64,000 nt of DNA from Nereocystis luetkeana (taxonomy: Eukaryota; Sar; Phaeophyceae; Laminariales; Laminariaceae): positions 2,361,001 to 2,425,000 of the forward strand of contig JARUPZ010000010.1 in assembly GCA_031213475.1 (NCBI GenBank). The letters are read 5' to 3'. The position numbers were made by a program, and so were the translations under genes. The notes under the pieces are model-generated. The model did not search any database and was not told the origin of the DNA. It saw only the letters and a program-made list of their open reading frames with translations. Of the stretch, positions 7,036-61,322 are shown piece after piece (positions within the stretch are counted from its first letter, which is position 1; the number at the start of each line of letters is the position of its first letter).

Positions 7036-7526
7036 CACATCGTGAACACACAAAATACCGAAGACAGGTTGACTCTAGCGCAGTCGGCACGTCTCTTCGC
7101 CGCCAGACCAGAGGCAGCCAGCCTTGGCTCGGACGCTTGGGTCCTACGCGCAGTGCAGCGCGCCCAACGCGTCTCTTCGCGGCGCCAGACAACAACGGCA
7201 GTCGGTCCCGGCGTTTGCTCGAATCTCTGCACGCACGATAAATATTTATTTTCCCCGTATATAGGAAGACTGTTTCGATTTGCCAAAATCATACCAGGTA
7301 CCAGGTATCTGAAAATGCGATCGGATCAAAATCTGAAGCTCAAAAACCAAACCGCATAGAAACAGTCTAATAATCGTACACTTTGGATTCGTCGATTTTC
7401 TTCTCTGGAGGCTAAAAAGGTGCAAGCTTTGATCCAGACAATCCTTGCACTTCGGGATGTATAGTGTTAGGTAGGCATTACGTATCTGGGTACCACACCT
7501 TTTCCTTGCTTTTCGTTTTTTCTCGC

Positions 7527-7652
7527 AATTACGGGGGATCATAGTTAATAAGACCAAATATTGTTATTGTAGCAAAAAGCGTGAAATATATACCAGGTAC
7601 CAGGTATGTTTTTATGTATACCACAGGTCCTATTAACTATGGTCCCCCATAA
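7527..7652. mobile_element. MITE-1 copy carrying two TACCAGGTA scars
   Basis: Normal arms (TTACGGGGGATCATAGTTAA and complement). The core word ATATATAGGTTTTT is interrupted by TACCAGGTACCAGGTA at 7591-7606, so the copy is about 17 bp longer than its sisters. Confidence 0.85.
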
Positions 7653-9119: not shown

Positions 9120-9310
9120 CATTACGGTGTGGTGTACCGGTGTGGTGTGCTGGTGTGGTGTGGTGTCGTGCGGTGTGGTTTTATGGGGGTATGGTGGTAC
9201 CAGGTATGGCCTCGAGTGGACCGGGGGGGGGGGGGGGTTGTGTGGTCGGGTAGGGTGGGGTGCGGCGAGGCGGGGTGAGGTGGAGTGGAGTGGAGTGGTG
9301 TCGTGCGGTC
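9120..9310. repeat. GGTGT-type degenerate minisatellite
   Basis: GTGGTGTGGTGTGG-like units with a G tract at 9224-9237 and a TACCAGGTA word at 9198. Confidence 0.8.
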
Positions 9311-10062: not shown

Positions 10063-10065
10063 CAC

Positions 10066-10606: not shown

Positions 10607-10778
10607 TATGACTTTCCGGCGCAACGCGTGTACAGGTACAGCAGTAATGGTCCCTCTACCATATACTACTGTAGTCTCGGTATATAGGCGCCGGCCAGCA
10701 ATACCGGCACCATATATAGCGGCAACCGGCACTACTTCCGCCTACCCTACCCTTTTTCTTGGAGCTACAACTATTAAT

Positions 10779-10885
10779 ACTACGGGCGACCATAGTTAAA
10801 AGGACCAAATATTGTTCGTAAAAATAGGGAAATGTGTAGAATTTTGTGTGTAACGTAGGTCCTATTTACTATGGCCCCCGCAATA
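10779..10885. mobile_element. MITE-1 copy
   Basis: The left arm is TACTACGGGCGACCATAG, preceded by a TATTAATA word (10772). The right arm is ACTATGGCCCCCGCAATA. Confidence 0.85.
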
Positions 10886-11117: not shown

Positions 11118-11336
11118 AAGGGGGGGCATAGTAAAAAGTACCTACGGTATACACAAAAACCTACCAGGTATATGTTTTCCTATATTTACTATTGCGGGGG
11201 ACCATAGTTAATAGGACCTGTCAAACACATAAATACCCATATATTTAACCATTTTTCCTAACAATATTTGGTCCTATTAACTATGGTCCCCCGTAATAAC
11301 AATATTTGGTCATATTTAATGTGGTCCCCGGTGATA
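11118..11336. mobile_element. MITE-1 copy nested inside another MITE-1 copy
   Basis: An outer, older copy (left part 11118-11190, right part 11298-11336) is split by a younger complete copy at 11192-11296. The outer core word TTTACTAACAATATTTGG is interrupted exactly at its TA, which is duplicated on both sides of the inner element. This fixes the target duplication as TA and the inner terminus as TTGCGGGGG/CCCCCGTAA. The outer copy also contains TACCAGGTA at 11162. Confidence 0.88.
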
Positions 11337-11342
11337 GTGAAA

Positions 11343-11521: not shown

Positions 11522-12129
11522 AACACAGAGGGCAACCGGCACCGCTAAACCGGCACTAAAGAGGGGGAGACCAAAACTGCTTCAATAGAAAATAAAAAAA
11601 ACCGAGTCAGGTGAAGATCGAGAAATTTCGTTGAATCTCATATTTTGTTTCGATTGTTCAAGTTCTCAAGTCGTGTGTGGTACCTGGTATGTGCATAAGC
11701 TCGTAGGAGAATCTATTAATAGAGGATTAGAATTTCGCGCATTTTGCGAACTAAAAGCACAATTGCGTGAAATCTTGCCTTGGGGTCCGATGGCTCGAAT
11801 TACGAAGTCGAAGCATTATAATTTCGTGCTTTGCAAGAATTTCGTGCATTGCAAGCAAGGGTACCAGGTGCAAACCAGGTATGCAGCATGCCGAGTACAA
11901 CAAGCATTCATATCGAGCCGCTCAATGCTACCGGTCGACTCCGTCGCCAAGGGTACAGAACAATACAATACGAAATTACTAACGCTGCTCGCCACTGCAT
12001 GCTATATACCGCACACTGCACGGGTCCATTGCTCAAAAACACGAAAATACTCGCTCGAAAGCCCAAATGCCAGAACAACAGGCTTCCGACTGCTGCTGTG
12101 GCCGTATGTTGCTCTTCTCTGTAGAATCC

Positions 12130-12340: not shown

Positions 12341-12894
12341 AACTACGAGTACTCGTACTACCACTCTATCAACTCCCAATGTGTTGGCCTGGAAGGGGTA
12401 CTGCTTGCTACTGCTGCACCAGGCATGATAGCGTACATATGTATTCATACTGCGGAGGCAAACGCGCGAGGCATTACCCTGCCACAGCCCTAAGGTGTAT
12501 ACACATTTTATCAACAGACGTCGGGGATACATACCATGTGTGTGTGTGAATATGTGGAAGACGGGACAGGTTTTGGGAAAGGTTTGCGAGAGTAGGGGCT
12601 TCATAAATTTAAAGAAGAAAAAAACTGAATATATACCTGGTACATACCAGGTACCTACATCGGCTGACGTGACACTGGAGGCGATGTATCGTATGCCCGG
12701 GGTTCCCCTGCACTCTTTCCCCATTTGATAGACAGCCGTCAAGGAACTCTCTGGCAAAAAAAAATAGGAAGGACAGCCGTCAAGCCAGCCGCCGAGGAAC
12801 TCCCCACACTAAAGCTACTGTAGTACGGACAGCCAACGGATCGGATTTTACCGGTACAATATTATCATAGGCGATTGAGGAACAACTGAAAATA

Positions 12895-14967: not shown

Positions 14968-15245
14968 GTGTGTGTGTGTGTGTTCTTCACATTAAACCGT
15001 TCTTTCTACCCGTCGACATCCAGCACAACCAGTGTCCGTGCCGATTCTCCAATCCTAGAAGAGATACAAGTTATGTGGTCACAAAGCTACGCCACAGAGA
15101 TACTACATTGCCACGTGTGCAGTATGCACTGCAGTGGGCAATGCAAACCCATGTCATCATACTAGATACGACAGGCACGACATACGCAATCTATGAAATA
15201 GTGAAACGAAAAGAAACAATCAAAGAGAAAACAAAAACAAAGTAC
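14968..15245 (+). repeat. R3 dispersed repeat (TG-microsatellite head)
   Basis: It begins with a TG run, then TTCTTCACATTAAACCG, TACCCGTCGACATCCAGC, AGAGATACAAG and CATCATACTAGATACGAC, and ends in an A/AAC-rich stretch. Two overlapping frames stay open through most of it (FFTLNRSFYPSTSSTTSVRA and the shifted PFFLPVDIQHNQCPC), but copies elsewhere break both. Compared with 33103-33120 it carries a TACCTGGTA insertion at 15243. Confidence 0.75.
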
Positions 15246-15639
15246 CTGGTAGACAGTACCTGGTTCGATCTCGGGGTAAATCCATTGCACTTTACGGAAT
15301 GTGTTACGCGTACAATATGTAAATATCCAAACACCAGTACGTACCCAAAAGCAGCCTGGCTGTGCTGTTGCATGCTTGCTGTCGTTGTATTTTTGCTGAT
15401 ATGCTTGCTGTTGTCGTTGTTTTAAAATTCAACGGTTATATCTTGTCGATTGTGTTGTGCTACGATCGTAATATTTAATACCAGGTAGTTGTATTCACAC
15501 CACCAACGGTTATATATCGTCGTCGTAGCAGCATAATAGTTGCACTCACGTCAACGGTGGTGTCTTGTCGTCGTTGTTATCGCTGTGTTCACATTCAACC
15601 GTCATATGATGCCCTCGATGAATGCACAATATTTCGCAT

Positions 15640-17386: not shown

Positions 17387-17588
17387 CTAGAAATGGAAAA
17401 ATATGCCATTCGCACCCGTGTGGTCAGGAAGATCACAGAACACGTATGCCTGGTAGGTACGACCTGCTGTTTGGTAGTGCGAGAGAAGAAAGGTTATGAT
17501 AGCAGCGAGTGGCACTATAGTTGAAGGGCACAGCAGCACAGCCGTCACCAGGTACCTACCTACCTGGTATGTGCAAAATATAAGGTGC

Positions 17589-17622: not shown

Positions 17623-17820
17623 CTTCACATTAACCCTCTTAGAAGCGCAGTCCCGTTTTCGGGACAAACCACTCAAATTTCAAGTAGTTTGTCCCCAAAA
17701 CGGGACTGCGGTTCTAAAGGGGTTAAACCGTTCTTTCTACCCGTCGACATCCATCCAGCACAACCAGTGTCCGTGCCGATTCTTCAATCCTGAGAAGAGA
17801 TACAAGTTCTGTGGTCACAG
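17592..17820 (+). repeat. R3 copy interrupted by a MITE-2
   Basis: The TG-run head and TTCTTCACA (17592-17629) are separated from ACCGTTCTTTCTACCCGTCG (17727 on) by a complete MITE-2. The R3 empty site CACATTAAACCG is known from copies at 14997 and 32096. The copy is truncated after GTGGTCACA. Confidence 0.85.
17630..17727. mobile_element. MITE-2, complete, TTAA target proven
   Basis: The element CCCTCTTAGAAGCGCAG...CTGCGGTTCTAAAGGGG sits between two TTAA words where the empty R3 site has a single TTAA. TTAA duplication with CCC termini is the hallmark of piggyBac-superfamily elements, so this MITE family is likely mobilised by a piggyBac-like transposase (inference). It has no coding capacity. 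Confidence 0.88.
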
Positions 17821-17986: not shown

Positions 17987-18204
17987 AAAGGCCCTGAAAT
18001 AAATGACGAGTTCGCATAGGACACGCGAAGAATCTCTCTTATACCTGGTACATACAAAAAGGTGGGGGCGTCCGAAATGCCACGAGTGAATAGGGGTCTG
18101 TAGGTGAAGGCTATCAAGTTTGGAGCACAAAGGAAAAAACGTGCGAATAAAACTACGACGTCACCACCAAGCAGCCCCGGCTACTCGGGGTAGGCAGGGT
18201 GAGG

Positions 18205-19379: not shown

Positions 19380-19645
19380 AGTGTTAGTAGTTGTTGTTTG
19401 TTGTTGTTCTCACATTAACTCACAATTCAATGCAGTCCGTGGTCGCAGGACAGGCTCCAATAACTCTGGAGTGGAAGAAATACCTCAAGTAAAAACAGAG
19501 GCAAAAAAAACAAAAAACAGGCATACGCACTCCACCACTGCGGACACCAGGGAAGCAAAAAGGAGACTATTAATAGCAGACAAAAACCTAAAAAAAGAAG
19601 ATGAAGCTAAGCAAAACAAAACAAAAACAAAAACAAAGTATACCA
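19380..19645 (+). repeat. R6 dispersed repeat, partial
   Basis: It begins TTGTTGTTGTTCTCACATTAA, then CAATGCAGTCCGTGGTCGCA, AACTCTGGAGTGGAAG and a lysine-rich A-tract region. It matches the complement of 33040-32800. An open frame with basic repeats exists, but no domain is recognised. Confidence 0.65.
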
Positions 19646-19689
19646 GGTACCAAGGTAGCATATGGGTAATCGCTTCATGTTTGTTTTCC

Positions 19690-21345: not shown

Positions 21346-21884
21346 AAAAAACTACGTGTCCGTAGACTCGTCTTGTGCTGCTGTGTGCACCGCACAACAA
21401 TAGCCGTTGGTCGATTTTTCATCGAGTTTTAAATGTTTTGCCAATTCACGCAACATACGCGTTTCGATTTCAGAAAGGTCGTCGCGTGTACGTGAGCGAG
21501 CAGGGCTTAGAGGAGGGGAGACAGCAGGGCAACCAGCCGACCGTTCAACGCGCGAGACAACACAAGACAACGCACTCTAAAATGACCTAAGGAAGGAAGT
21601 TCCAACCAAATTTTCTCGACAACAGCTAAAGTGCAAACAAACGCCGAGCGGTGCGTCTATCGAAAGATCCCGACGAGATATTCCCAGAGCCGCTGTTTTC
21701 GGTATGTATATATACCTGGTATACTCGTATCGTAAGAGCAGTCAAGTCAGACTCTGTCAAGCCCATAAATGCTGTCATGGACTTAGAGCCAACGTGCCCA
21801 GCAAAGCCAACAGCAATGTGCCGACATGTTTCAGAAGGAACCCGATGCAGCAGCAAAAGCGTTGCAGACGCTGTCGACAGTTGC

Positions 21885-22073: not shown

Positions 22074-22787
22074 AATCCTCTTGACACTGCAGTCCCGTTT
22101 TGGGGACAAATCCTTGAAACTTCAAGCAGTTTGTCCACACAACGGGACTGCACTCCTAAAGCAGAAAACAGGAAAAGGTTGACGTATTTGGGACTGCGAC
22201 ATGAGAGGCCAAAACAATAATAACATTGGTATTATAAAGGGTACCAGGTATATCAATAGATCCAGCGTGAGCGCTTGCAGCATTACTTACGTACGGGTAG
22301 GATCGATAATGTTGCTTGCGCCCGTGCCGTGCGACTCCTTCCTCGTACCGTTACTCGAGCATCAATCTGTACTGTACCGTACTCCCAATCCTGCCGTGGC
22401 CATCGCTGTAATCGTCATTTTTTGTCGAAAATGTTTCGCAAGAGAGTGAATGAAGCTTTTTAGTACCGCAGTCCCGTTTTGGGGACGAACTGCTTAGATT
22501 TTGACCGGATCGTCCCCTCAACGGGACTGCGGTTTTGAAACCAATTTAGGGCAAAGTGCAGTCCCGTTCTGGGGACAAACTACTTGGAATATGACTGGTT
22601 GGACTGGTTTGGCCCAAAAACGACTAAAAAATTGACTGGTTTGACTGGTTTGGTCCCTAAACGGGACTGCGGTTACAGTAAAAGGGCTTTAACCCTTTTA
22701 GAACCCCAGCCCCGTTTTGGGGACAAACTATTTGTGATTAGAGTGCTTTGTCCCCACCTATGGGAGTGCGGTGCTAAAAGGGATAAG
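22074..22787. mobile_element. Cluster of four MITE-2 copies
   Basis: Copies lie at 22074-22162, 22455-22541, 22551-22687 and 22690-22787. The third contains an internal duplication of GACTGGTTTGG-type words and is about 40 bp longer. An R5 repeat fragment (22265-22420) lies between the first two. Such close packing suggests local hopping. Confidence 0.8.
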
Positions 22788-23600: not shown

Positions 23601-24528
23601 TCCTCTACGTCGGCGGCAGCGTTCTCTTGCGGGGCAAGGCGCAAGCCAAGCAAGAGGAGGCATCGGGAAGGGATCCCATTGCTTCGCTTGATCAACGGGG
23701 ACGGGAACCAGGAATAAAAAAGAGAAAAAAGAGATTAAAAAAAAATACGAAACAAAACAACAAAACAAGAACAAAACAAAAACATGCAACACGAGAGCAC
23801 AAAAACCCAAACGATGCAGCGGGACTCAATTTTTGCCACCAGAGGCTCATCGTAGGTACGGTATTCTCAGCGCAAGCAGCAAGTCATCCATCCAGCTTTG
23901 GCGACAGAGAGAGAACACGTTCGCAAACTACCCGCCCAGTGTATCTCGGGTGTTTCTGAACGCGTCGTCTTCACGTCTTTCTTTTCAGCGTAAAATAGTA
24001 TATTTGTATAAATAAACGAGGTTTTCCATAGTATGAACGGGTTCCTACAACAGAGTTAAGTCATACCACCGCAGGTGCAAGTTTTTCTGCGACAGCCATC
24101 ACAGGCATCATACTCGTACTTTCAGCCGTGCACGAGTACCATGGAGGGGTCCTGCCTCGTACGTGGTACTCTCTGAAAATGAGTTGTCTTTCGTTATTTC
24201 TACTTGTCGAAGACCCTGACAGCTCACAGCAAAACTGGGTCTTCACCTTTTTACCTACTATACCTGGTATACTGCTGTTGTGTACTCGATCCTATTATCT
24301 GATTATTAATATTAATGTTGATGAGAGCACCAGGCAGCAGTGCAGCAGTAGTGGAAGTAGCAAATGTCTCGTGTACCCACGGGCGTTGGGCGTCTACTCC
24401 AACAAATTCCAATTTTTTACTACATTTTAATGTACAAAAAATTCAATTCTACATGCATGTACGCGAAAAACAATAAATGAAGCCAAAAAATGGAATGTGC
24501 ACCCCTTCCCTCCCTCCCCGAGACTCAC

Positions 24529-26220
24529 CGAGTTCTCTCTGCGCGAAACGCGTCTGCTGAGCCTCCGATTCGCCCTCGACAGCGCCTGCACTCTCCTCCT
24601 CAAGGCCTCCACATCGTCCCCGCTGCCAACATTCGACCCCCTCCTCCCGCCGCCCCCTCCTCCTCCCCCACCTCCTCCTCCGGCTACTCCTCCAGCGAAA
24701 GCAGCCCTCCTTCCCGCCCCGCCCCCCGCGCTCTGCTCCGAGCCACCTCCTCCTCCTGCTCCTCCTCCTCCTCCGCCGCCGAAGTCGCCACCACCGCCAC
24801 CACTGCCGCCACCACCGCTACTGCTACCCTGAGGGGCGGGGGCGAAACATGGGGCAGTGGTGAAGGGCCCTGTGGTGCTCCTCCGACGTCGCTCCGGCCC
24901 GGTCATCGGCTGAAGCTCAGGAGGCTCGATCGAAGGACCGTCTTCGTCTTCCTGAGAGTTGGCGTGTGCTTGTGGTCGGGATCGGGATGGTAGGGTTACC
25001 AGGTTGTCTTCGCTGTCCTCGTCGTCGTCGTCGCCGTTGTCGTCATCGTCTTCGTCTTCCGGCGGTGGAGACGGTGGTGGCTTTTCGGGGGGGAGGGAGG
25101 ATAGGACCCCCGGTTTGGGTTGGAAATGCCACGGCGTGGGGGGCGGCGGCGGTGGCGGCGACGGTGATGCGGAAGATGATGAGGTTGACAGTGATGATGA
25201 TGCCAATGCGGATGCTCCTCCGCCTCCTCCTCCTCCTCCTCCTGCTGTCGCTGAAGCTGCCGCTGCAGCTCCTGCTCCTACTGCTGCTGCTGCTGATGCC
25301 GCGCCTGGTGCTCGTGAACCTCCTGATGCCACCCACCCCCCTCCCGCTCCTCCTCGTGCTGCTAGTCCTGCTGATGTTCCCGACGCGGAAGTTCCTGATG
25401 TCGATGTTCTCGGCAACTCAGAGGGGGCGAACCTCCCCATAGCAGCAGCATTGCCTGCAGAAGTTCCTCGGGTGCTGCTGCCGCGCCCGCGCCGACCAGA
25501 CGACGCATTGGAGGCCACGGCCATGGCGCTGAGCTTGGTCTCGTGCGGCAGACTCTCCGACCTGCGCACCGACCCAGGCCTCCGGGATCCACCCCCACCC
25601 TCGCCACCACCGACACCCGACATACCAGGGGCAGTCGAGCTTCTGCGACTAGCGGGCCATCTCCCACCTCTGTTGTTACTGCTGTCATTATCAGGAAAAA
25701 CCCAGTTGTTGTTGGTGTTATTACTGCTGTGGGTGCCTGCAACTGCTGCTGCTGGTATTTCCCTCACTGCGGACGGGGCTCCGGCTCCGGCGGCGGTTCC
25801 TGTCGCGTCTCCCCGCGACTTCGGCTGCTCCGGCCCGGCCTGCCGCGCGAAGAGCGAGTAGAACGCCATGTCGTTCCGCTTGGAGGAGACCGCCCCCATT
25901 CCGATCACCCCCTCCGTGGAAGCCGCGCTGTCCGAGCTGGGGCTTGCCCGCACGAACGACGAGGACTGCGCGGAAGCGGTCGAACCAGGAGAGGGGTGGT
26001 GCTGAAATTGGTGTTGTTGCTGCTGCTTCTGCTGCCGACTGCTGCTGACACTGCTGTTGATACTGCCGCTGTTGAACGAGCTCGACTCCCGATGGTGGTG
26101 AGTGCCCCCTCCAAGACTGTACATCCTCCTCAGCACTCCGTTGTTGCTGGCCATGTGTGCACCCCTGCGTAGGCGGGCCCCGAGCGACTGTCCATCGTGG
26201 TTGTCTGGCGTGCTACTCAT
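24529..26220 (-). CDS. First coding exon of a low-complexity Ser/Gly/Pro-rich protein, family unknown
   Basis: A 564-codon open exon starting at an ATG with an in-frame TGA 45 bases upstream and ending at a good donor (AACTCG|GTGAGT), phase 0. I do not recognise the family. Visible features are basic Ser-containing patches near residues 15-40 and 211-222 (VRRSESLPHE), a Gln/His run at 63-75, Gly/Ala runs at 290-335, a Pro-rich stretch at 351-386, an acidic block at 387-406, a Gly-rich region at 466-525, and an Arg-rich heptad segment at 535-564 (VEALRRRVQALSRANRRLSR) that looks like the start of a coiled coil continuing in the next exon. Ala is not translated from a simple CAG array over most of its length, and GC is far above the flanks, which supports coding. 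Downstream exons were not found. Confidence 0.6.
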
Positions 26221-27375: not shown

Positions 27376-29824
27376 AGACCGAAATTTCCGAAATGTCGAA
27401 ATTTCTGAAAAACAAGCAAAAAGGTGAACTTTGTGAAACGTGTTTCAAATTCCACAGAAAATCATACCACGAAAAATCCAGAAACTCGAAAACTCGAAAC
27501 TCGAAACGCTTCGTCTCTCCTGCGAACCATTCGTCTCGAACTTTCGGAGCTCAACTTTCGACCGCGCAAGCCGGCCTTCCCTGGCGAAATACGTGAAAAG
27601 ATACGCGAGCCCCCTGATCTAGTCCAGCCCGACTCCGGCCGACACCGACACCCGGGGAGATGGTCGATCACCCCGAAATCTCAGCAGACGGCAGGTCAGC
27701 AGGCAGCAGCAGCAGCATCGAGCATCTACAGCGTAGCAACAGCAAAGCAGTAGTAGCACTGCTGTGAAGAAATGCGACCACGGCAATATACTCAAGTCTC
27801 TCGTTTTTGTTTTTTACTGTTTGTTGAAGCTTCGTACGTACATGAACCCCAAATATCATGTAACCTCCGTTCGTTCTGGACATCTGCCTCCCACCCCCAC
27901 GAGAGCCGAGACCACCACCCCCCTTTGAATCTTTACAAGAGCGCGTTGTTGTTGGGTCGCTGCTGTTCAGCTGCGAGTACTTTGTCGTGCGGGGCTCCGT
28001 CGAATTTCACTACTATTAATAGTCAATCGGGTTCTCGATCGATCGGCGATTTCCGGTAACCAATTTTTTTGTCGGTTTTGGGTTTTGGTACGAACGAGTC
28101 GAATAAATACCTGGTAATAATGTTTCTGCACCCAAAAGTTGTACGAAAGCTACGATGTTACTGGTTACTAAGATGTATACCTGGTACCTGGTACAAAGCA
28201 GTAGTATTAATATTAGTAGTGCAAAACGACTTTATACACGACACTTCCTCTGCACCTATTAATAGAAGACCATGACAGATGATAACAGTCATAAAATCAT
28301 GATGATACCATGTACACCAGCCCAGGTAGATAACCCATAATGCTTTGCTTGGTGGGATGGGGGACTATATGAATGAATGACTCTAAACCGCTGTCTGGTG
28401 GCATGAATTAAGTCCCAGACGGGTGAGTGCGAGCGTCGGACAAGTTCGGTCACTCGGCAACGTTATTTCTTCTTGTAGATCTTACAGGATTTAATCTCCT
28501 ATTAATATTATTGATACTATTTTACTTGTAATGCTTGCACCTGGTAGGGGCGACATCGCCAAAAAACACAAGCAGTGGTACAACCTTATACGAATGTAGT
28601 CAGCCAGCGGCACGCAACAAACAAAATGCTCGATGAGATATCTATATTATGATATCTATGCCAGAGGGGCACGAGGGAGAGAGCAACTGTCATAGCCTTG
28701 ATGCGTACCAGGTAGCATTTTATACCTACTGCGGGCTGCGGCGGTAGACAGCAGTGTGATTGATCTCTAATGCTACTCGTTATGTTGCGTACTGCCGTAT
28801 GTTGTTACAACAAGAAGCAATTAAATTTAAAATCACCAAAAACAAAAGAATATGCGATACTCGTAGCAGTGCGTACTTGTAAATTTTTACTTTTACCTGG
28901 TCGGACTGCTCAAAAAAGTGTTGCTGATAAGAAGTGGCACCAGCAGCAGCACAGCAGAGCAGCAGCAGAGGAAGAAGTAGTTGCCTACCCGTAAGAGTTA
29001 CCAGTATACCGGTACTTGCCCCCGGCGAGTGCCAGTCGCAACGTAGACGACTCGTGGAAACACATTGATTGTTATTATTTAGAACGATTGCAGTATTCTG
29101 ATGAGATAGATGATGATGATGAGGTCATAACAAAGGCGGTCGGATCTGTTCGACGGGACGACATGCACATTCACACCAAGCATTTGAACTGACTGAAGAA
29201 CAAGGAATGAAGTAACACAAAAAACGGACGGAGAGAGCAAGGAGCTTCGGAGAAGAGAACGAGCTTCGACATCACAGACAACTCAACGCAAAACTACGCT
29301 TGCACTATGCAGTATGTACGCACAAATATCGCTAACCTGTAACAAGAAGAAGAAGAAAAAGAAGACCAAGAAAACACAAACTAATGTGTGTCCGGTATAT
29401 ACCGGTGCATATATAATCAATCAATGTCCAATAATCTCTATAACAATGTCTGTGTGACAGGTGCTCCTGCCCTGTTCGTGCCCAAACAATTGAGCCAAGA
29501 ATGTACCATGGCAGGCAGCGTCTCTGCCCCTTCCTGCTTCCCGTGCCTCCTCGCGTTTCATGCTTGACGTGGAGAATGACGGCGTGGCTTCGTAGCGCAG
29601 AGCATGTCACAACATCGCGGCCCCCATCGCGCGTCTTAGTTTTCACGTCATTGTGCTGGCAAAGCAACCACAGGAACTACGATCATCATCGCGCGAAAGA
29701 TGGGACGATATTTACTATTTAGGGTGGGATAATACTCAGAAAGCGGTCAACCACAGAAGAAGCATGTAAATATGAAGAGTAGAACAACATCATGCAGCGT
29801 CTGTCCTGCGCAAGAAAAAAATAC
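27376..29824. other. Intergenic stretch, no recognised gene
   Basis: Repeated ACTCGAAACTCGAAAC words at 27480-27515, dense TATTAATA (28014, 28205, 28257, 28500) and TACC(A/T)GGTA words (28108, 28178, 28185, 28706). The conserved-looking frame at 29332-29667 has no recognised domain. Confidence 0.4.
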
Positions 29825-30915: not shown

Positions 30916-31391
30916 AGTGTAAACCACCGAAGACCCCAACAACAATACAATAACACAACACTACACATTGTCGGATGGCAAGCATAATAATAATAACACA
31001 ACAAGTAAGTTGTGAAACTGACAAACCCAATTTGAAGCATCGTTACATATCATATGTAGCTTCCAGTATACGACGAATGGTTGGTGTGTTGGCGCCTTAG
31101 TTTCCGAGTCATTTATCCACCACGTACAGCAGCGTACAGCACCATTTTAATAAATGTACCAGGTACGTGATATGACTTGTAGACGATCTACCCATACGCA
31201 CGTAGCACATACGTACGTACGACAACAACCAACCGTAACATCATTACGAACAACCAGACCAGGAACCAGATATCAGATGTCAAATACACAACAAAACCGA
31301 ACGTATGTATGATACGAGAGACGAGAGACTGAAAACACGTCTTCTGCCTGGAATATTTCACGATGGATAATGATAGATATCACCTGGTTAA

Positions 31392-31528
31392 TAAATTGTA
31401 GCTTTGTGACCACAGAACTTGTATCTCTTCTATTAATAGGATGGAAGAATCGGCACGGACACTGGTTGTGCTGGATGTCGACGGGTAGAAAGAACGGTTT
31501 AATGTGAAGAACACACACACACACACAC
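31392..31528 (-). repeat. R3 copy with a TATTAATA insertion
   Basis: Complement of the R3 5' half. At 31431 the sister-copy sequence CTTCTAGGATGG appears as CTTCTATTAATAGGATGG. Confidence 0.85.
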
Positions 31529-31966
31529 CATTGTCCACTCTGCTTACTTCACAGAACAATAAAAACAACAAAATAGAAACAATAAAAGCGATGTACCTGG
31601 TATTCATATTTATAATTATTAATAGTATTTTTGTGGCGTGATTTTGTGACTACAGAACCTGCACTCGTAGTATTATTAGTAGTATTTTTGTGACGTAATT
31701 TTGTGACTACAGAACCTGTACAGGATAAAAGAATCTGCACGAACTCTGGTTTTGCTGGAGGTCGACGAGTAGAAAGAACGGGAAAATAGACCCAAATACA
31801 TACGACATCTATAAACAAATATCGGGGGGTGGTGAACCCTCAAGGCGCGGCGGGCGGGCGGAAACAAGACAAGGAACTATCTTAATAATACGTAGACAAA
31901 ACCAAATTGCAGATGTAAACGATAAAATACGCGAAAAACTACAAGCAGTTATTAATAGTAGTTGTT

Positions 31967-33245: not shown

Positions 33246-33925
33246 GAAAAAGAACCACACCGATAGCGTGGGGATGGAGCTTGGATGCAGTTTATAAGGA
33301 TTTAAGGATAGAACGTAATGAGAAGGAAGGAGCAAATACAGCAAATAGAGTAGACAAGCTGAAAGTTGGCACGGAAGGGAGGTAGACTTGGTGCATGGGT
33401 TTCCTTTTGTTTCCGAGGTTTTCTTCTTTCGGGAAAGTTGTGAGTGATCCATGTTGAAGATCATGCTGCACATTGTCTGATGGCAAGATGAATAATAATA
33501 ATAAGAAAAAACACCACTGCTTGTGGAGACAGAGGAAGAAGTGTACAGGTAGTACATAGATTCATAAAATACAATACCAGTAGTAATTATTGTCACCGTG
33601 TTCTCAGTACCTGGTAAGTCAGGCATTAATATTGAAATAGTGGGAAATAGACCTTGACGAGCCCAAGAATATCCTTCTCCCACATGTTATATTCTGTATC
33701 TTCAACAGAATAAATAGTAGCATCATATTATTCGCAGGCATGTTTAGCGATAAGGAATGAATGAACGAATTGAATTGCACGACGAAGCGAACCTGAACAC
33801 ATACAACATTGAGCAACGCATTTTTGAAAGACCTATGTACACGCGCATATATATATATATATATACCACCACCCTGCACCAGTAATATCGGAAAATAAAT
33901 ACGAATGGAATATATACTCTTCGTA

Positions 33926-34113: not shown

Positions 34114-34737
34114 ATACCTGGTAGATACATACGAAGAGAGCTCTCAAAAAAGGGATGTTTGCCTTTTTACTCGCGGACTCTGGAGCTGTGGCTACAGGAA
34201 GAAGAAGAAAAAACCCGGTAAAACCGAACGAGAAGGGAAGGCTCTCTCTTGAATCTTGATTGTTATCCAGGTATTCCTCGGTATTTTTTCCGCGGGGTTT
34301 ATCCCACAGTTTTGGGCGGGATTCGGGGTTATCCTTCAGTACCGTGATAAATGTGAAATCCGGCTCGCACAAAAAACAAATAAATCCCGCGCAAAATATT
34401 TTATCCCGTTCCCGCGCCCACGGAAAAATGTTTTATTCCCGTTTCAGAGTACAAAGTTTAAACGAGTCCCGCGCAAATACAACATATTATGTCCCGTTCC
34501 CGCACAAACACGTCCCGGAAGTTCGGGATACACTGTCATGGTCTTCATGGTCTATTGTCGGAGAGGCGTGTTTCTGATGAAACGCGCCAAGCAAATAATT
34601 TATATAAAACCCCACTGTTCTCAGAACTCTCTGAGAGCCAGGAAAGTGGGAATCATCAAGATAAGACATCAATCTCTGTGAGTAAGTATACACGTCTAGG
34701 CCGACCTGCATTACAGGAGTCGAGCCTGCACCATACT

Positions 34738-35261: not shown

Positions 35262-35575
35262 TGTTTTTTGGTTTTCTTTTTCTTTTTCGATCTGTCTTCT
35301 TCGTTTTTGTTTTTTTCCTTTCCTTTCCCTATTTCATAGAATGTGTATGTCGTGCCTCTCGTATCCAGTACAATGACGTGGAATTGCATTGTCCACTGCT
35401 GTCTGTGTTTTTCTGCATACGTGGCAACGTACCTGGTATGTAGTATCTCCGTGGCGTAGTTTTGTGACCACATAATTCAGAACTTGTATCTCTCTATTAA
35501 TAGGATTGAAGAATCGGCACGAATACTGGTTCATGGTTGTGCTGGATGTCGACGGGTCAGAAAGAACGATTCGAA
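35262..35575 (-). repeat. R3 copy with TACCTGGTA and TATTAATA insertions
   Basis: Compared with 26983-27375, GCAACGTAGTATC has become GCAACGTACCTGGTATGTAG (35430), and TCTAGGAT has become TCTATTAATAGGAT (35495). Confidence 0.82.
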
Positions 35576-38270: not shown

Positions 38271-38343
38271 GGACATAACAAGTGTTCTAATATGGAGAAT
38301 TTGATCATTTACCCTGGGCCGGATAGTGGTCGATCGATCTTTT

Positions 38344-38810: not shown

Positions 38811-38854
38811 ACTGGTATACCAGGTATAGTATATATATATATACCTGGTATGCA

Positions 38855-38951
38855 TTAACCCTTTTAGGACCGCAGTCCCGTGTCGGGGACAAAGTACTTA
38901 GAATTTGACTGGTTTGTCCCCAAAACGGGACTGCGGTTCTAAAGGGGTTAA
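38855..38951. mobile_element. MITE-2 copy, near consensus
   Basis: TTAACCCTTTTAGGACCGCA to GACTGCGGTTCTAAAGGGGTTAA; both TTAA ends are present. An inverted pair TACCAGGTA/TACCTGGTA with an AT repeat (38818-38850) precedes it. Confidence 0.9.
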
Positions 38952-39515
38952 GGAAATAAAAATTGCAGGCCACACGCTCAATGTTTAGGCGCAAAATAGT
39001 GTTCGTGATTTCTCATGGCCAAAAACACCGCTCGTGGAGTCTGTTTTTACTTGCTATCAGGGTGTAACTGTTTTTTGCTCAAAAGGGACAGGTGTGCCTG
39101 ATTCTTGCTTCTCTGCCCTAAATACAAGCATCAGGTTCCGCGTTCAGTCATCAATAGGTTGCTTTTTCGTGCTCCCTATTTTACTTTCGTTTCAGCGAAC
39201 AGTGAGCGATTATATTTCACGTAGACCTGGTCTAAAATGTTCAAATTCCCGGCGATGCAAGAAAAATTCCACGGCAGTCCGGATTTTCCCTGCGGGTTGA
39301 GTCCCGCCGTGGCTAGGTCCCCTCCCGGGGAGTTCCGCGGTGGCCGGATCCTGCACAAACAATCCCGTCGAATCCCGTCGTTGCTAGACCCCGTAGAAAA
39401 TATCCCGTTGAATCCCGTTGTCTTTTAATATCGTTCCGGGGAGTCCCGCGATGCCATGGTCAGACCCCATACAACTAGTACCGTGGGATCCCAGGGTAAC
39501 TGGTGATCGGTCGTT

Positions 39516-39820
39516 CACCCCTATAGCTCAGTAGGTAACTCCTTCACATTTGACGTCGTCCAGGTCACGGGTTCGAACCTCACTTCGAACGTTTCTTTTA
39601 CAGAAACGCTTGCGCGTGCACGCCCAAAAAAAAACACATCTCCCTGGATCCCCAGGTAATGAAACGAAGCGGGTAGGTCAGCGTACGGACGTATACGGTT
39701 CCGACGCCCCAAAGACCCCGCCCTTCAGAGGGGGGGAGAGTGTTATAAGGATTACCTTGGGCTGGGTAATCGATCGGTCTTTTACCCCTATAGCTCAGTA
39801 CAGTAGGTAACACCTTCACA
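39516..39820 (+). mobile_element. SINE-C copy
   Basis: ACCCCTATAGCTCAGTAGGT and CACGGGTTCGAACCTCACTT, ending TTTACCCCTATAGCTCAGTA. The preceding 39300-39500 has repeated AATCCCGTCG/GTTGAATCCCG words. Confidence 0.78.
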
Positions 39821-39934
39821 TTCCCGCGGGATATGGTCTCAGAGTCCAAAACGAGTCCCGAAGAATGCCCTGGTGCTTATCATACCGTACACCTCGGATA
39901 CACATCAGTAGTGCCTGGTAGTTCGTCACTACTT

Positions 39935-40640: not shown

Positions 40641-40735
40641 CCTTGGCACACCCCGCCCCCCCGGCTATTTTTATGCTGAGACTGAACCTAAGCTTTGATG
40701 TTGTTGTGGTTGTTGTTGTTGTCACATTAATGATG

Positions 40736-41089
40736 GGAAGGTGTCACCTGCTGAGCTATAGGGGTAAAAGATCGATCGATTACCCAGCCCAGGGTTATCC
40801 TTGTAACACTCTCCCTCCCTCTGAACGGCGGGATCTTTGGGGCGTCAGTCCCGCCGTATACGGCGACACACACGCTGACCTACCCGCTTCGTTAAATAAA
40901 TGCCTGAGGAACCAGGTAGATGTGTCTTTAGAGACCGCACGCGCAAGCGCTCCTATAAAAAGAAACGTTCGAAGCGAGATTCAAACCCGTGTCCTCGACG
41001 ACGTCAAATGTGAAGGTGTTACCTAGTGAGCTATAAGGGGTAAAAAATCGATCGATTACCCAGCCCAGAGTAACCCTTGCGACATTAAC
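40736..41089 (-). mobile_element. SINE-C copy, flanked by heads
   Basis: The complement of CTGAGCTATAGGGGTAAAAG occurs at both 40756 and 41029, with the whole body between; the B box is the complement of GATTCAAACCCGTGTCC. Confidence 0.75.
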
Positions 41090-41121: not shown

Positions 41122-41231
41122 TATTGCGGAGGACCGTAGTTAATAGGACCTACGGTATACATAAAAACCTACCTGTTTAACTATTTTTACTAACAATATT
41201 TGGTCCTATTAACTGTAGTCCCCCGTAATAT
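41122..41231. mobile_element. MITE-1 copy
   Basis: TATTGCGGAGGACCGTAGTT at the left and AACTGTAGTCCCCCGTAATA at the right. Its right TA is part of a TATTAATA word (41229). Confidence 0.85.
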
Positions 41232-44127: not shown

Positions 44128-45133
44128 CGCGCTGGTACTGCCGTGCGCACTATTTTTTTCATTTTTGTTACAGCCTGTTTGGCGACCACAGGCAGGATTT
44201 CAGGGAAATGAGCTATTAATATCAACATTGTGAGAGCATCATCATCATTATCATCACCATAATCACTCTATATCATGCATATATATGGCCTTAGTTGGGG
44301 GGGGGGGGGGGGGGGTAAATACTATCTATCCCCGCCCCCTATGCCACGTACACTCCTTTCCGAACATGCCACCGGCACAGATATCATGAACAAGACTTTA
44401 AGCGTGGACCCTCTCTCTTTTGGTGGCAGTGGCAGGGGCACTGGCAGCCGCAGGCAAATAACCCAAGACCACAATAATCCCGTCACCCAAAACGTCGCCA
44501 TGTCTCTCGTAAATCCCTTTCTAAGCGAATTATATATATATATATATATACCATATACCAAGTACATCAAGGGACCACGGGTACACGACAACAAAAAAAA
44601 CAAAAAAACACCTCAATTTTTCCTTTCTTATTTTTAGTCCCAGACCGTGAGGGCATACTACAATCAAGTAAAACATAACTGAACATATTTACCAGGTATA
44701 CATTATATATATATATGTTAATATAGATGTTGAATTTAGTTTCTATAAAAAATCCCCCAACACGCCAGTTTGTTTTCAATCCCGACATCAATCGTGGCGG
44801 GTGTTGTAGCTCCGTTTTCTCCATTATTTTTCAGTTTTCGTGCACCCCTGCGCATATATATCTGAATATATGTTCGTATAATATTAATATTTTAATAGTA
44901 ATGTTTTGTGAAACGTTCGCTTGTTTCCGAACGTATATATCTCTTCGTGCGCGCACTTTTAGCAGAAACGCCGAGAGGGTCGACACGGGAAGGCCGTCCA
45001 GACATGGTCGTCGATGTTTGGGGTGCGACCTGTTGTACGTTCGTACGAGCACGAGCTGGCACGAGTGTTCTTTCTTTTTTCTTCATATATTTTTGCTTCT
45101 TCCTGTCGTCATGCCCCTCTCTGCCTCATTCCA
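44128..45133. other. Intergenic with AT and G tracts
   Basis: An 18-base G tract (44299), AT microsatellites at 44531-44550 and 44703-44716, and TATTAATA at 44214 and 44882. The frame at 44341-44530 (MPRTLLSEHATGTDIMNKT...) is open and non-repetitive but has no recognised domain. Confidence 0.4.
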
Positions 45134-45362: not shown

Positions 45363-46232
45363 AATACGAGTAGCAGGGTTGAGTAACCCCTTTGACATTG
45401 ATAACCCCGACGAGACACTTTAATGACGGCCACAGGCAGGCAGGCCCGACCGAGGTGGAAGAAACGAACCAGGTTCGAACCGGTACACGAAAACTTGAGA
45501 AATAAGTGTGGACAGGGGTTTCCTCTCGCTCTCCGGGGCAGAAAAAAAAAAAAAAAAAAAACGACGAGGTGTGCGACCGAAACAAATGGTTGGTAACTTT
45601 GGTATTACATTGTCAACCATTTAGGAGCAGCGGGAGCACCCATCAGTATACGTGTGGGACCGATCGTGTTGTGCCCGCGCCCGTACGACTCCTTGCATTC
45701 AACCATTGTGACTCGGACACCCATGTTGCAGGATATCATCCCCGCAATCACACAGTGGCCGCCGCTGCAGTCTTCATTTCCATCCTTGCCTTGTAAAGTT
45801 TGTCCCCTCTCACGACCCCCCCGAGGGTAAACGACCCTCCCATCCACGTTTTCCAAATGGTTCCTCCCATTCCTACAAAACACGCCTGACTGTTTCATCT
45901 CGCTTGATGACGTCGTCGTGCGTCCCGGCCTTTATTCCACGAACACCCCGCCCCCCCTCCCCTCCCCCCAGTCAATGATCAAATGACTCAGGCAAGCAAC
46001 AAATGAGTACGACCCGCCCCTTCTGCCCCCCCACCTTCCCACCTAGTCCCTAGTCTCAGCTGTCGGCCATCTCGAGAACTGCAGCTATCCGCATAGAAAA
46101 CCTGGGGGTGTGTCCCGGATGTCCCCTGGCTACAACCACAGGGCGTGACGAAAACATAAACAGCACATGCATCATCTCTGTCGACAATCATTACTGCGTC
46201 CTTGTTGGTCATGATAAAAGTACTATTAATAC

Positions 46233-46348
46233 TAATACGGAGGACCATGGCTAATAGGACCGAATATTGTTAGTAACAACAGGAAAATTTAGACGTGTTT
46301 GTGTGTACCATAGGTCCTACCTGGTATTTACTATGGCCCCCCGTAATA
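46233..46348. mobile_element. MITE-1 copy carrying a TACCTGGTA scar
   Basis: Left arm TAATACGGAGGACCATGGCT; right arm GGTCCTACCTGGTATTTACT. The consensus here is GGTCCTATTTACT, so CCTGGTA has been added at the TA (46318). Confidence 0.88.
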
Positions 46349-50200: not shown

Positions 50201-53200
50201 ACCCCACACTATGATGGCCCTTTAAGGCCACGCTTGTTCTATAATAGCGTCTCCTATCAATAGTTCCCGGGTTTCATTCCGGTGACCCCAATCTCAACAT
50301 GTTTTTTTGTCGGAACAGAAAAAAAAAACATACTGGTACCCTGTTTTTTAACACGCTGCGTTTAGCAACTTCGGCTGGTTCGTGCCTACCGGAGACCGGC
50401 CGTGACTCGAAAAGAACTTCACCACAGCAGCTTGTGACGCCCCGAGATTTCTCTCACGCGCATGTCCTCAACAGAGGCCTACACCTCGACTTAGAGGTGC
50501 CGCATGCAGTGGTCGAATAGGTCAAAACTTGGGGTGCACAAAATGAGACAAGAGACAACCCCAAACTGATCGTTAGCACTTCACTTGCGGAAACCTACAG
50601 TTCCTCACAACAGACTGCCGCCCGCGAAATGGAGGGATGCTCCTGATGGGGTGTGGCAGGGCGTCGGGTGCGCCAGACAGCAGCCGCAGGCAGACGGCTC
50701 ATGAGGTGTTCACGTGTACTCTAAGCTGCGAGCGGGTATAGCGCAAAAAACTCCTGGAATCGCTAAAGAGTCCCATTTCGCGCGCGGGGGCATAGTACGA
50801 TGGCTACACCGCCGATGAGGAAAGGGTCTTCAAATATATACGTACGGCTGTCCCCCAGGCCCGTGATATACCTCTTTTCGAGTCGTCATCAAAGATGCTG
50901 CGGGTAACAAAACTACGTTCGCATGAGAGGTCTCGTAGTAAGTTATTGGGCCCAAACAAGGACCGAAAAGCTCTACGTTCTTGCATATTGGCATCAACCA
51001 TTCTAAAACTTCGAAATGCGGATCTTGGCCGCAAACCCCTTTAGCTGGAATGCCAAGTCGCATGTACATGTTGCCGAAACGCCTACGCGGGGGTGCTTGA
51101 CGGCGCATTCCTGAGGGTACTACGGTAGCGTCCCCTTAAAACATACCAGTATCAGGGTACCAGACACCTACATACCTGGCTACGATACCTTTTCCTTTTT
51201 CGATCATTTCCCCAGGCGGTCCGATCGGCATTGGGGCTACCTCCAGCGCGTGCGACGGGGCCGACGCGAGGTACAGCACTAGGCGTGCACCGAAATTAGC
51301 GAAATATTTACGATTCTTACCGACTCGAAAGAGCTCTCTTAACTCCTTCCAAACAAAACTGACAAAACACAAAATCAAGATTAGCAAAATGCCGTGCCCT
51401 ACAAGAGATATACAACGAATAGTACTGCAAAACATTAATGGGCCTCTGACGATAAGGCGTGTCTTATTGGGTAGCTCCTCCACTGCCCTTTACCCTTTTA
51501 GGACTGCAGTCCCGTTTTGGGGACAAACTACTTGGGATTTGAGTGTTATTGTCCCCAAAACGGGACTGCGGTCCTAAAGGGGTTAAGGAGCCCCGTGCTA
51601 CGAAGGAGGTGGCACAGCTTGGCTAAAATCGTCTCTGAAATGACGGGGCTCCTTAGAGCCCAAAATTGTCAGAATTCCATCCTCGACTCGCTGAAAAAAA
51701 AAAAAAAACTGAACACCTAAGCCATGGGAGTATTCATCAGCCATCGCACCTTGGCTTTCCTCAGCCTGGAGCCTCACAACAACAGCAAAAATGGCGCACC
51801 TCTTATTCATCAACCATTGTAGCATGCGTCGTCCGTCAGAAAATGGTTTGGCCAGAGAGCGCTGACTCTACACCTGGTATACTGGTATAACTCGTAACAC
51901 GGGTCGGTCCATGCTTCGAGAAAATCGGCCATGGCTCGCACTGCTATAAACTCTTCATGACACCTTCAACTTCTTCTGCTGCCCAGAAGCACAACCCAGG
52001 CGGTAGGGTGTTTGGGCTAGGGCTAGGGTAAGGGCTAGGATTTTGTAAAATACATTTCATCCATCTGGCCGCAGCCTACGCCATGCTCTATACAGCCCCT
52101 CCAACGGGGGCAGACGGCGGCTATCAGCACGAAACCATTGACTTAATGTAGTCCCCCTCGCACACCCCTCCCGCCTCTGCCGGCTCCCATACACCCCCTC
52201 TCCCTTGCCGCGCTTACGCGGGCGGCGATCACTGAGCTCCGGTTTTCGCAGCGTGCCCCCGCCCCCTCCCTCCCCTGCCCCGCGACCACCCCTCCCCCCC
52301 ATGCACGACAAGAGCGCACCTACCCCACCTCTCCACTCCTACCCACTCCCCATCCCTCCAGCCCCCCCTCACCCCCATTTTCACCCACCTGACGTCTAAC
52401 ACAAACGGCGCCCAACCATCTTGCATCTTTGCCACCACATCTTGAGGCGAAATCCGCTGGAAATATTCCCCCGCCCCCTCTTCCGCTGCCACCTCGTTAT
52501 CTTCGTCTTCAGAAGGAGTTCCATTGGCGGCGGCGGTGGTAGGGGGGGGAGGGGTTGAGCTCGCGGTGGAGGCAGAAAAGCCGCAAAAGCCTTGGTAGTC
52601 GACAAGGCCTGTGACCTCCGGGCGACCGGAGATTTTTCGCAAAGGCGATTCCTGCAACAGCAGTGTTGGTTGGCGTGCACAGGGTTTATATAGCGTGCAT
52701 GTGGGGGAGCGCGGGAGGGGGGGGGGGGGGGTGGGGGGGGGGGGGTAGGTTTAGAGTTGGGGGAGGGGTTAGGGACAGAGTTTAGGTAAGGGTTCGGGTT
52801 GGTGTTTGGGTCAGGGCTAGTCGCGCCTGTAGAGGGAGCGCGGAGGCGGCGGGCGGCGGGCGGGCGCGGGGGTGGGGGGGTGGGGGGGGGGGTAGGGGGT
52901 ACTCGATAGGAGAGATGTACTCGATCTCATGCATGGCCGTAGTCGTATGACCATAGACCCTCGCATCCCTACAATGCCGGGACGGAGCATGTCGGGTTTT
53001 CACCGACTAGGCGGGGGGGGATAGGGTTAGAGTAAAGGTAAGATTGTTCATGTTAGTGTTGGGGTAAGGGTATAAGGGTCAGGGTTGGAGATGGGGGGAT
53101 AGGGTGTGCGAATCGCACGGAGTTGATTTTTTGGCCGAGGAGCCACTGCTCGTTCACTGACCCCAGTCACCGGAAGGATGCGCCCAGTTGGCCGGTTATC

Positions 53201-55902
53201 TACTGTGCGTCCTTCTTTTGCTGGGCTTCAAAGGTTATCGCTTGCGTCAGCAGATGGGTGCCTAACAGAGGAGTCTCCACCTGGAAGGGGAAACGTGAGG
53301 TTTGCCAGGGAAAAATAAGGCATGCTCGCTGCAGTTATCTGCTTTTATACACCGCTGTTTGCTGCACGCATGCAGACCTCTGGTCTCACCATCAGCGCCC
53401 TGAGCGCATGCCTACGTCTATATATACCTGGTAGTTTAATTACATTTTCGGGGTTTTTTCCACTTCCTTCGTACGTACGTACGTACGTACGTACGTACCC
53501 CTGTTCGTTTGTTTTCGGGTGTATGTACGGCGCACTCAAACATAATTATTTCGTTTGCAGGTTACACGGTATGGTAGATGACAGCATGACGTGCCGCATG
53601 AGTGACCACGGGCTACAGTCGTCACGGAATTGAGCCAATATGAGGACATCACCACTCTCAAAAGGGAACCAAAAAGAAACGAAAGCGAAACGGTGAAATC
53701 AGGCCGGGGCACGGCGAAACCAACGAGCACACAATCAAAGCCGAAAATAAAACATTAAACAAACAAAAACAATAAACACAATAAACACAATGAAACAAAA
53801 CTCGAGCCGAAGCGTCCGCAACTACAGTCAAAACAAAAATCACAAGAGAACACAAAAAAAAGACAACAATACTCGCGTCACATCGACCGCTCTGGGCGTT
53901 CTGAGGAGGCGTTCTTGCTACCACCGTTTCTGCGCAAAATGGCCACAGGTTTCCTCCGCAAAAACGAGTGCTGCACATCGTATTGACCTTGGCCCAGCTT
54001 TGACACTATGGTTGACATATACATGACTTTGAACCCTATACGTAAGCCTAACCTCGACCGCCTGGGAACTTTCTCGGAATATTCACGGATGTAATGAGGT
54101 GTTCATGTGGGCGAGCACCCGTTGTTTGTCGAAGCCGAACCAAATTGAAAACAGCACGGCTCAAATTGGCTCCTAAAAAACGCGCAGCATCGGGAACCCC
54201 AGTGGCCCACCCTAAGTCGCACCCCCTTCCCCCCCACAGAAAAAAAACGCCTCCTGTGTACGCACGTAACGTGCGTTCCTTGAAATTAATCTCGCACAAC
54301 GCTCGCGGGGCGACGCGTGTTGCGATATAGGTACTGTACCTTTTCTTGGCCAAACTATTTTATGACTGACGGCGCGGGGGGCGGGGGGGATGGGGGGGGG
54401 GGCGGTACTTAACACCGTTGGATTATCACACTTGTGCTTTTCTAACTTTTTTCGATACGTAAGTAACTCACAGTCCTCTTAGGCGCTTCTTCAAGCGTGA
54501 AAACATCCACGACTGCAGCAACGGCCACTGCTTTGGTCGGGTAACGACAGAAAAAAGGGGTTTTTTTACAAGGAGTCGCGAGGCCCCGGGGGGTGCTGCA
54601 GGACCCTCACGCTGCTCGTAAGACGGCCGGCGACACCAAAAGGTTATCGTTGTTTTTTTTTTCGTCGCTATGTCGGGGGGTGTCCCCCCCCCGGGATAGG
54701 TAAGCAGTGGGATTGTTTGCTCATCATGTTGCACTTTCAATTTCCCTCGAGGTCAGCTTCTGACCCCTACCTCGTGGTGTAGAGTTTCCTCGAGCGAGGA
54801 TCTTCAGAAAGTATTGGGAGGAACCCCTCTATTACTGACACGTGCCACGAGAGGAGAGGGAGTCAGCCCTTTTCGGCGAAAAAGAATATTTTCTGAATGA
54901 CGGGACTCCTTAATAACCCAAAAATCATCGGAATAGTGTTCAAATTTCTTGTTTTTTGCGATATTGTTGTTTTGTACACCTATAGGCCGTGAGGTTTATT
55001 CATCGGGCTCCCCTTTCAACTTTTTCAAAAATCAGGTATTACTTATGGTTAGTATAGAGCTCCTCTAGCGAGGAACCTCAGGGGAAAAATCGGTGCACCT
55101 CTGTCTTTCCACAGCACATGTCTTCACATGCGAACATGCATTCCGTACATGAAGTATGTACCTTGAAGGACATCTTGAGAGCGTCGTACACAAGAAGCCG
55201 CCCGGAAAGGACGTCCCCCTTGCCCAGAAGAATCTTGATCACTTCCGTCGCCTATCAAACAAGGTACCGGCAGAGGGTAGCGCGAGGCAGGCAGGGGGGG
55301 GCGTAAGGACGCGAAGATGGGCGACAACTACACAGGTGGTCGGGACACACTCACCCCCCGCCCCCCCGTGCACACTGTGGGCGTAAACAAATCCTTGCCG
55401 AGACATAGAACAATGCATACCAGGTATATATTAGCAAACCCCACGGACCATGGGTGACGAACCCAGGGACGCGAAGAAACACCTCGGTAAAAAATAAAAC
55501 AAGCAAAGAGTAGTACACCTGATAACTGAAGCACATCTACACCTCAGACAAAAACATAAAAAGGGAGGTCCGCGAACATACGTATCAGATACTATATATA
55601 CTAGGGGGGCGCCAACCCAACCTATACATACTACGTGGGGGGGGGGGGGCGTTGACGCGTTGTGCAGGGATTTCTAGGCCGCAAGGGAAAAGACTCTGTG
55701 AGACCAGACGAGCGAAAGACAAGCCAACAAAACGACGAAAGACCTCCACAGCAATCGCCAGATGGGAGCATCACCTGTATGCAACCTACAACTCCGGGCA
55801 GTATCCCCAGCACGCCCCCCTCGGCGCACGAGGGCACCAGCCCCGGCGGCGGCGGCATCGGCAGCAGATCTCGGTAGCTCGGGCCGTCCTGCAGACCCAA
55901 AG

Positions 55903-61322: not shown

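Follow-up and report, generated by a model that had tools for sequence, protein, structure and literature searches.

The 9-bp word TACCWGGTA, found throughout the window (the whole 64-kb stretch of DNA analysed, C10:2361001-2425000), is very probably an excision scar, made by repair of a TA target after the departure of a cut-and-paste transposon, and most simply explained by self-annealing CCWGG overhangs. The footprint reading is strongly supported by the abundance of the word, its substitution for a single TA between repeat copies and the target preference of its flanks. Both the source element and a stagger of 5 bases are predictions.

Abundance of the word and its position in repeat copies

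Exact word counting found 34 copies of TACCWGGTA in the window. Shuffled windows contained a mean of 0.27 copies and a maximum of 2, none of 100 shuffles reached 34, and a fourth-order Markov model of the window predicted 1.6. Among palindromic words of the form TA-NNWNN-TA, the CC version occurred 34 times, the GG version, a word that MITE-1 copies contain, 11 times and all others at most 4 times. The excess reported by the sequence-only reading was therefore upheld, and all 12 of its example positions were correct by exact word search; its tally of 33 has to be raised to 34, as the copy at 2710, upstream of where that reading began, had been missed. A genome-wide count, which it had proposed, gave 182,395 exact copies in the assembly (465,085,209 bases, 1987 contigs), or about 1 per 2.5 kb, versus 1,744 for the same word reversed, which is a rough control only. 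The observation made in the window is confirmed, and its scale genome-wide far exceeds what the window shows. A second sample, C1:1-196200 (C1 below), was pooled with the window to give 260,200 bases, 92 scars and 86 events. The sites in the window are listed in Table 1.

Table 1. Positions of TACCWGGTA scars, variant scars and MITE-1 features in the window.
Feature	Position	Strand	Basis
Scar TACCAGGTA	2710..2718		exact word count
Tandem scar TACCAGGTACCAGGTA	7292..7307		word count and flank analysis
Tandem scar within MITE-1 copy	7591..7606		TA in sister copies
Scar TACCAGGTA	9198..9206		exact word count
Scar within MITE-1 copy	11162..11170		gapless to empty form at 11 places, to full form at 0
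Scar TACCTGGTA	11681..11689		exact word count
Two scars, 2-base spacing	12634..12653		exact word count
Scar at R3 repeat copy	15243..15251		TA in sisters 27094, 33126
Scar TACCAGGTA	15479..15487		exact word count
Scar TACCTGGTA	17561..17569		exact word count
Scar TACCTGGTA	18042..18050		exact word count
Scar TACCAGGTA	19641..19649		exact word count
Scar TACCTGGTA	21713..21721		exact word count
Scar TACCAGGTA	22242..22250		exact word count
Scar TACCTGGTA	24261..24269		exact word count
Scar TACCTGGTA	28108..28116		exact word count
Tandem scar TACCTGGTACCTGGTA	28178..28193		word count and flank analysis
Scar TACCAGGTA	28706..28714		exact word count
Scar TACCAGGTA	31157..31165		exact word count
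Scar TACCTGGTA	31594..31602		exact word count
Scar TACCTGGTA	33608..33616		exact word count
Scar TACCTGGTA	34115..34123		exact word count
Scar within R3 copy, word and TGTA gained	35430..35438		11 bases absent in three R3 sisters
Scar TACCAGGTA	38818..38826		exact word count
Scar TACCTGGTA, TA-rich surroundings	38842..38850		exact word count
Scar TACCAGGTA	44690..44698		exact word count
Scar within MITE-1 copy	46318..46326		gapless to empty form at 16 places, to full form at 0
Scar between exon-like stretches, MOCS3-like gene	53425..53433		word count
Scar between exon-like stretches, MOCS3-like gene	55418..55426		word count
Scar between exon-like stretches, MOCS3-like gene	60843..60851		word count
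Variant scar TACCAGGGGTA, MITE-1 copy, same TA as 46318	5996..6006		11 empty-form places
Possible variant scar TACCCTGGTA, TATATA flank	58843..58852		sister-less site
MITE-1 copy, TA-flanked inverted-repeat element, ends TTACGGGGGACC	1574..1682	-	copy alignment
TATTAATA, word matching MITE-1 ends, in R3 copy	31431..31438		TA in sisters

Several scars lie in the kilobase-scale introns of a MOCS3/UBA4-like multi-exon gene on the minus strand at ~50.0-61.5 kb, whose exon-like stretches we take to encode a MOCS3/UBA4-type adenylyltransferase. Six joined stretches showed 81% identity to an Undpi1 record (presumably Undaria) and 76% to Ectocarpus siliculosus, which makes a brown-algal host very probable. 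The window contained no tRNA; the 25 of its open frames that reach 190 aa look largely low-complexity, and none of the 10 scanned against Pfam gave a match above the cut-off. The stretch 24527-26220 (minus strand) is the first exon of a low-complexity protein, to which a relative, P0001 (450 aa), is similar by eye at both ends. Other repeats were also recognized. MITE-2 has ends CCCTTTTAGGACC in TTAA (15 copies aligned; 17631-17725, 38856-38950, 51489-51589 and others), and near 27340 an R3 copy has the appearance of an unoccupied MITE-2 site, which would suit an element of piggyBac type. Repeats containing TAGCTCAGTAGGTA and GGTTCGAGCCCC lie at 38309-38635, 39501-39822, 40733-41079 and 34790; these words resemble tRNA promoter boxes, and the repeats are probably tRNA-derived SINEs. 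A near-perfect fold-back repeat at 59200-59440 has arms containing CCCTGGATCGTCACCCATGG.

Comparison of repeat copies showed that the word replaces a single TA. The MITE-1 copy at 46318 reads GGTCC-TACCTGGTA-TTTAC, with a single TA and never the word at the aligned places, and the copy at 11162 gave the same result (Table 1). The double scar at 7591 is clean against its sisters once the whole array is collapsed to TA, and the two close sisters of the R3 copy at 15243 read AAGGTAGACA. Of the five comparisons put forward from the sequence alone, these four were clean; at the fifth, the R3 copy at 35430, the 11 extra bases comprise the word's 7 plus TGTA, an inexact TA-to-word change. The TACCTGGTA and extra TGTA at 35430-35442 are perhaps two adjoining scars. 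Repeat alignment recovered the proposed change from TA to TACCWGGTA between copies, both in two repeat families of the window and in the second region. In MITE-1 the word is derived and not ancestral, the short form being that of the majority of copies, and with cases in MITE-1 and R3 it is not confined to one repeat family.

The best case in C1 is a tandem scar at C1:38770, whose sister is 97.5% identical and carries a plain TA; C1:48194 has an empty sister at 91% identity. The tandem scar at 7292 is absent from a C1 relative (82% identity), which reads CA at the TA. The sister searches admitted only alignments that were free of gaps around the site and whose local likeness was no lower than 75% or 80%. 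An empty sister was found for 16 of the 92 queries in the window and C1 and a full sister for 7, some of these matches being only ~80% identical; a few sites share one inherited scar. In the window-only search, 4 of 34 sites had an empty sister; of these four, 7598 is paired with another scar and so lacks a genuine empty site, and 38842 falls within a TA run. An unguided scan covered 806 short indels that distinguish repeat copies; the exact 2-base duplication was TA in 36, CA in 18 and any other in at most 11. The commonest TA-duplicating insertions were TACCWGGTA, TATTAATA and TAATA (6 each), three of the six TACCWGGTA indels (C1:61225, 92260, 114563) being one inherited position, which leaves about 4 independent ones. 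The target duplication that marks Tc1/mariner footprints, TA, is present around the scar.

Target preference, the MITE-1 yardstick and scar age

Flanks were read outward from the scar TA and pooled from both sides, 86 events giving 172 flanks. Position +1 was T in 81 of the 172 (48 expected) and A in 12 (35 expected). Position +7 was A or T in 146 (~90 expected), a preference equally strong in the window and C1. The mean TATA score at the scars was 3.97 vs 2.30 in the window and 2.71 vs 2.04 in C1, where the TATA preference was present (p 0.0004) but weaker and no event fell at scores 6 or 8. Per 1000 TA in the window, the scar rate was 0 at flank score 0, 84 at score 6, 62 at score 7 and 0 at score 8, with few sites at scores 7 and 8. 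An AT-rich target preference around TA, a further mark of Tc1/mariner footprints, is thus present in both samples and weaker in C1.

MITE-1, a TA-flanked element with ends TTACGGGGG (beginning TTA; 19 window copies aligned), was used as a yardstick. The predicted 2+2 fill-in of its ends is TA-TT-AA-TA. The word TATTAATA occurred 26 times in the window (for example at 19170, 31431 and 35495) against 1.5 or 6.4 expected from third- and fourth-order models, and 27 times in C1; in the sister comparison and the indel scan it also arises at single TAs. Its outward flanks carried G, T and A in 30, 28 and 29 of 52 cases, and MITE-1 insertion sites in the window in 13, 16 and 11 of 24. At the MITE-1 ends in C1 (n=12), T and A were found at 9 each but G at only 4, and that part of the yardstick is weakened accordingly. 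Judged by ends and target, TATTAATA is likely the excision scar of MITE-1. The word also abuts two MITE-1 copies and lies 1 base from a third (41122-41230, 10775-10885, 46230-46348), as if the element had re-entered its own scars.

That a TA element can be paired here with a likely scar, on the basis of ends and target, supports a like reading of TACCWGGTA. Both cases involve a TA target and a short palindromic scar. They differ in that MITE-1 and TATTAATA are present in the same DNA, whereas for TACCWGGTA the element was not found; MITE-1 prefers GTA outward and its scar insert is TTAA, and the flanks of TATTAATA differ from those of TACCWGGTA.

Head-to-tail 7-base tandem arrays made up 6 of the 86 events in 260 kb; the window held 3, where the measured rates would predict 0.45 double hits. 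Two of the six arrays have opposite centres, so that, at least there, a renewed hit on one TA is likelier than slippage, as the sequence-only reading had suggested for the tandem scars. With the C1 data, slippage was no longer upheld as the origin of every tandem scar. Copies with one mismatch numbered 184,988 genome-wide, against 64,511 for the reversed word, an excess of about 120,000 or ~0.66 per intact copy (58 per 92 in the two samples). Under constant accumulation and neutral decay, events are roughly estimated at ~2x the intact scars, or ~0.36 million. The scars appear to be decaying and of mixed ages. A window-only reading of them as undecayed and young was refuted by masking intact copies, pooling C1 and counting the genome.

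Source of the scar and competing explanations

No elements bounded by the word were found in the window among inverted-repeat pairs starting TACCWGG, which bears out what had been stated from the sequence alone; the sole well-matched pair, 7598/11170, consists of two scars in two MITE-1 copies. Such pairs numbered 0 in C1 and 3 in the window at a match of at least 13/20, all three involving intact scars. TA-flanked inverted repeats of any kind gave 55 and 65 pairs in the two regions, and 0 start with CCWGG. Across the 260,200 bases and their 92 scars, no convincing resident element with CCWGG ends was found. This null, taken with the rule of three, is still compatible with up to ~5,400 genome copies, so a low-copy element is fully possible. 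Searched against the whole genome at E 0.001, the DDE_3 profile gave 0 matches, as did Transposase_1, whose control was also silent. DDE_1 (pogo type) gave 28 matches; 12 of the 28 loci were read, and CCWGG-ended inverted repeats were found neither in these nor in four 8-kb stretches. The CCWGG-bounded element with an adjacent DDE/D transposase that the sequence-only reading predicted was therefore not found in the 260,200 bases or the 12 DDE_1 loci. Since no element was found, the TA-target assignment rests on the scars and not on an element.

Three loci (L055, L058, L059) represent a common pogo-type family with ends CAGTACCGGCC, both ends being seen only in L058; by their sequence, these ends would fit TACWGTA scars rather than TACCWGGTA. 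The insertion TACCGGTACTGTA at 3900-3912 of the window duplicates TA; it reads TA-CAGTACCGG-TA on the opposite strand and matches the first nine bases of the ends of this family. In viral_contigs the tandem word had 9 matches and TATATACCWGGTATATA had 10, and no match was rich in the word; MITE-1 words had 0 matches.

In the mechanism that we propose, the element would insert at TA in AT-rich sites and duplicate the TA. At exit, transposase cleavage of the non-transferred strand would lie 5 bases within ends that begin CCAGG or CCTGG. The 5-base overhangs would then anneal through their CC and GG, with a single A-A or T-T mismatch in the middle, so that ligation and mismatch repair would give TA-CC(A/T)GG-TA. 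Because CCAGG and CCTGG overhangs are mismatched only at the middle base, an A/T centre and one dominant product would be expected; the centre base in 260 kb was A/T in 92 cases and C/G in 3. Each hop would add one scar while the copy number of the element need not rise, and scars would accumulate and then decay neutrally. That the source is an undescribed TA-target family with a 5-base stagger and self-complementary CCWGG ends, present in few copies and responsible for hundreds of thousands of hops in one algal lineage, is a tentative proposal to which we give somewhat less than an even chance.

The scar could instead be real and its chemistry known. If an ordinary Tc1/mariner or pogo-type element ended in CCA...TGG and left an overhang of 3 (or 2) bases, fill-in with one base lost would yield CCA+GG or CC+TGG and hence the A/T centre. 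In the available passages, Tc1/mariner overhangs are of 2 or 3 bases (PMC3878927, PMC2642840), and Stowaway footprints have 2-4 plus 1-2 bases between the TAs (PMC1925063). The excerpted Stowaway scars reach six bases (PMC1925063), which weakens the 5-base reading and strengthens this one. The likely MITE-1 scar fits a 2+2 fill-in, the window has 8 copies of the 2+2 product TACCGGTA where 0.84 would be expected, and the 4 copies in 260 kb of TACCATGGTA, the full 3+3 product, fit a 3-base overhang better. However, 3+2 would have to prevail over 3+3 by 92 to 4 with no clear cause for the loss of one base, and a target preference common to TACCGGTA and TACCWGGTA flanks is not clear (p 0.12). As TACCGGTA, TACWGTA and TACGTA are also scar-like, several sources seem to be mixed. 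Extended words were counted in 260 kb at 6 sites for CCWGG plus G and at 3 for CCWGG plus GG; they call for five bases from a single end, the variants TACCAGGGGTA and TACCAGGGTA having these plus 1-2 bases of the other; the site at 5996 has empty sisters, and the one at 58843 is sister-less. We consider an ordinary element of this kind rather unlikely, and from the composition of the scar words we favour an overhang of 5 bases over one of 3. The words TACTCGTA and TACGAGTA, which resemble a Minos-type four-base scar, were found at 17 window sites (e.g. 6963, 12344, 24111, 28858) against ~2.4-3.6 expected, and the window sister search gave no empty sister for them.

Three further explanations were weighed against excision of a transposon. 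Host-programmed, near-complete excision of a TA-bounded element, with a ciliate-like outcome but leaving scars, would suit 92 scars with no convincing resident element in 260 kb. A few copies hopping over a long time would also give many scars and few elements, however, and scar ages appear mixed; we hold programmed excision to be very unlikely. Less probable still is a transposon-free slippage or templated insertion copying TA or a 7-base unit. The 6 head-to-tail arrays among 86 events are of the form that it would produce, but 2 of the 6 have opposite centres, the sisters carry a lone TA with no 7-base unit at the site to duplicate, and the A/T preference at +7 would be unexpected. The least probable explanation is that the palindrome has a function, for instance as a transcription-factor site under selection. 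The word is indeed palindromic and dispersed, but sister copies lack it with an exact TA duplication, its flanks show the TA-target preference, it is present in 182,395 copies, and a one-mismatch excess of ~0.66 per intact copy looks unlike a strictly conserved binding site. The Tc1/mariner-like footprint first read from the window agrees with the single TA in sisters, the presence of the word in more than one family, the target preference and the decaying copies.

Comparison with known transposon footprints

The insert between the two TAs of the scar is 5 bases long. In the available passages of the cited papers, Tc1/mariner footprints are of 2-4 bp (PMC7913693), Sleeping Beauty overhangs are of 2-3 bases (PMC3878927), the cut is made two or three bases inside the element (PMC2642840), the pogo-type Passer leaves 0-4 bp (PMC9976928), and rice excisions mostly cause deletions or leave filler (PMC4423477). 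The insert thus lies outside the 2-4 bp given in the excerpt of PMC7913693 and inside the 3-6 bases of Stowaway in that of PMC1925063. If the overhang is truly of 5 bases, it would extend the 2-3 given for TA-target transposases in these passages.

In the open-licence literature searched, TACCTGGTA as a whole word on this strand was absent and brown-algal Tc1 excision in a genome context was not found; among the open-licence matches listed there was no genome-wide scar of such a kind. PMC3271037 mentions neither footprint nor overhang. The terms footprint, excision and MITE have 0 occurrences in the available main text of PMC12477816, in which Ectocarpus is likewise rich in TA-type DNA transposons, with 17 Mariner-Tc1 families and 11,912 copies. 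If the words are scars, the genome would be a record of past jumps and a datable odometer of excisions. It would permit target choice, repair fidelity and hopping rate to be read from sequence alone, even if the element is gone or rare.

Among known systems, the footprints of Sleeping Beauty and Frog Prince are alike in the duplicated TA and in C(A/T)GTA with its A/T centre, as given in part of PMC3878927. The Sleeping Beauty scar insert in that excerpt is of 3 bases, whereas that of TACCWGGTA is of 5, and no element or transposase is tied to the scar described here. The zebrafish element ZB also prefers a palindromic AT target, according to the available passage of PMC7913693. Stowaway MITE footprints, as excerpted from PMC1925063, resemble the present scars in being fragments of TA-flanked terminal inverted repeats, 2-4 plus 1-2 bases, with repeated events per site. 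The Stowaway footprints are variable and derive from a single intron, and the footprint papers, in the parts available, deal with small numbers of scars at once; in the present genome a single pseudo-palindromic word predominates, at 182,395 sites.
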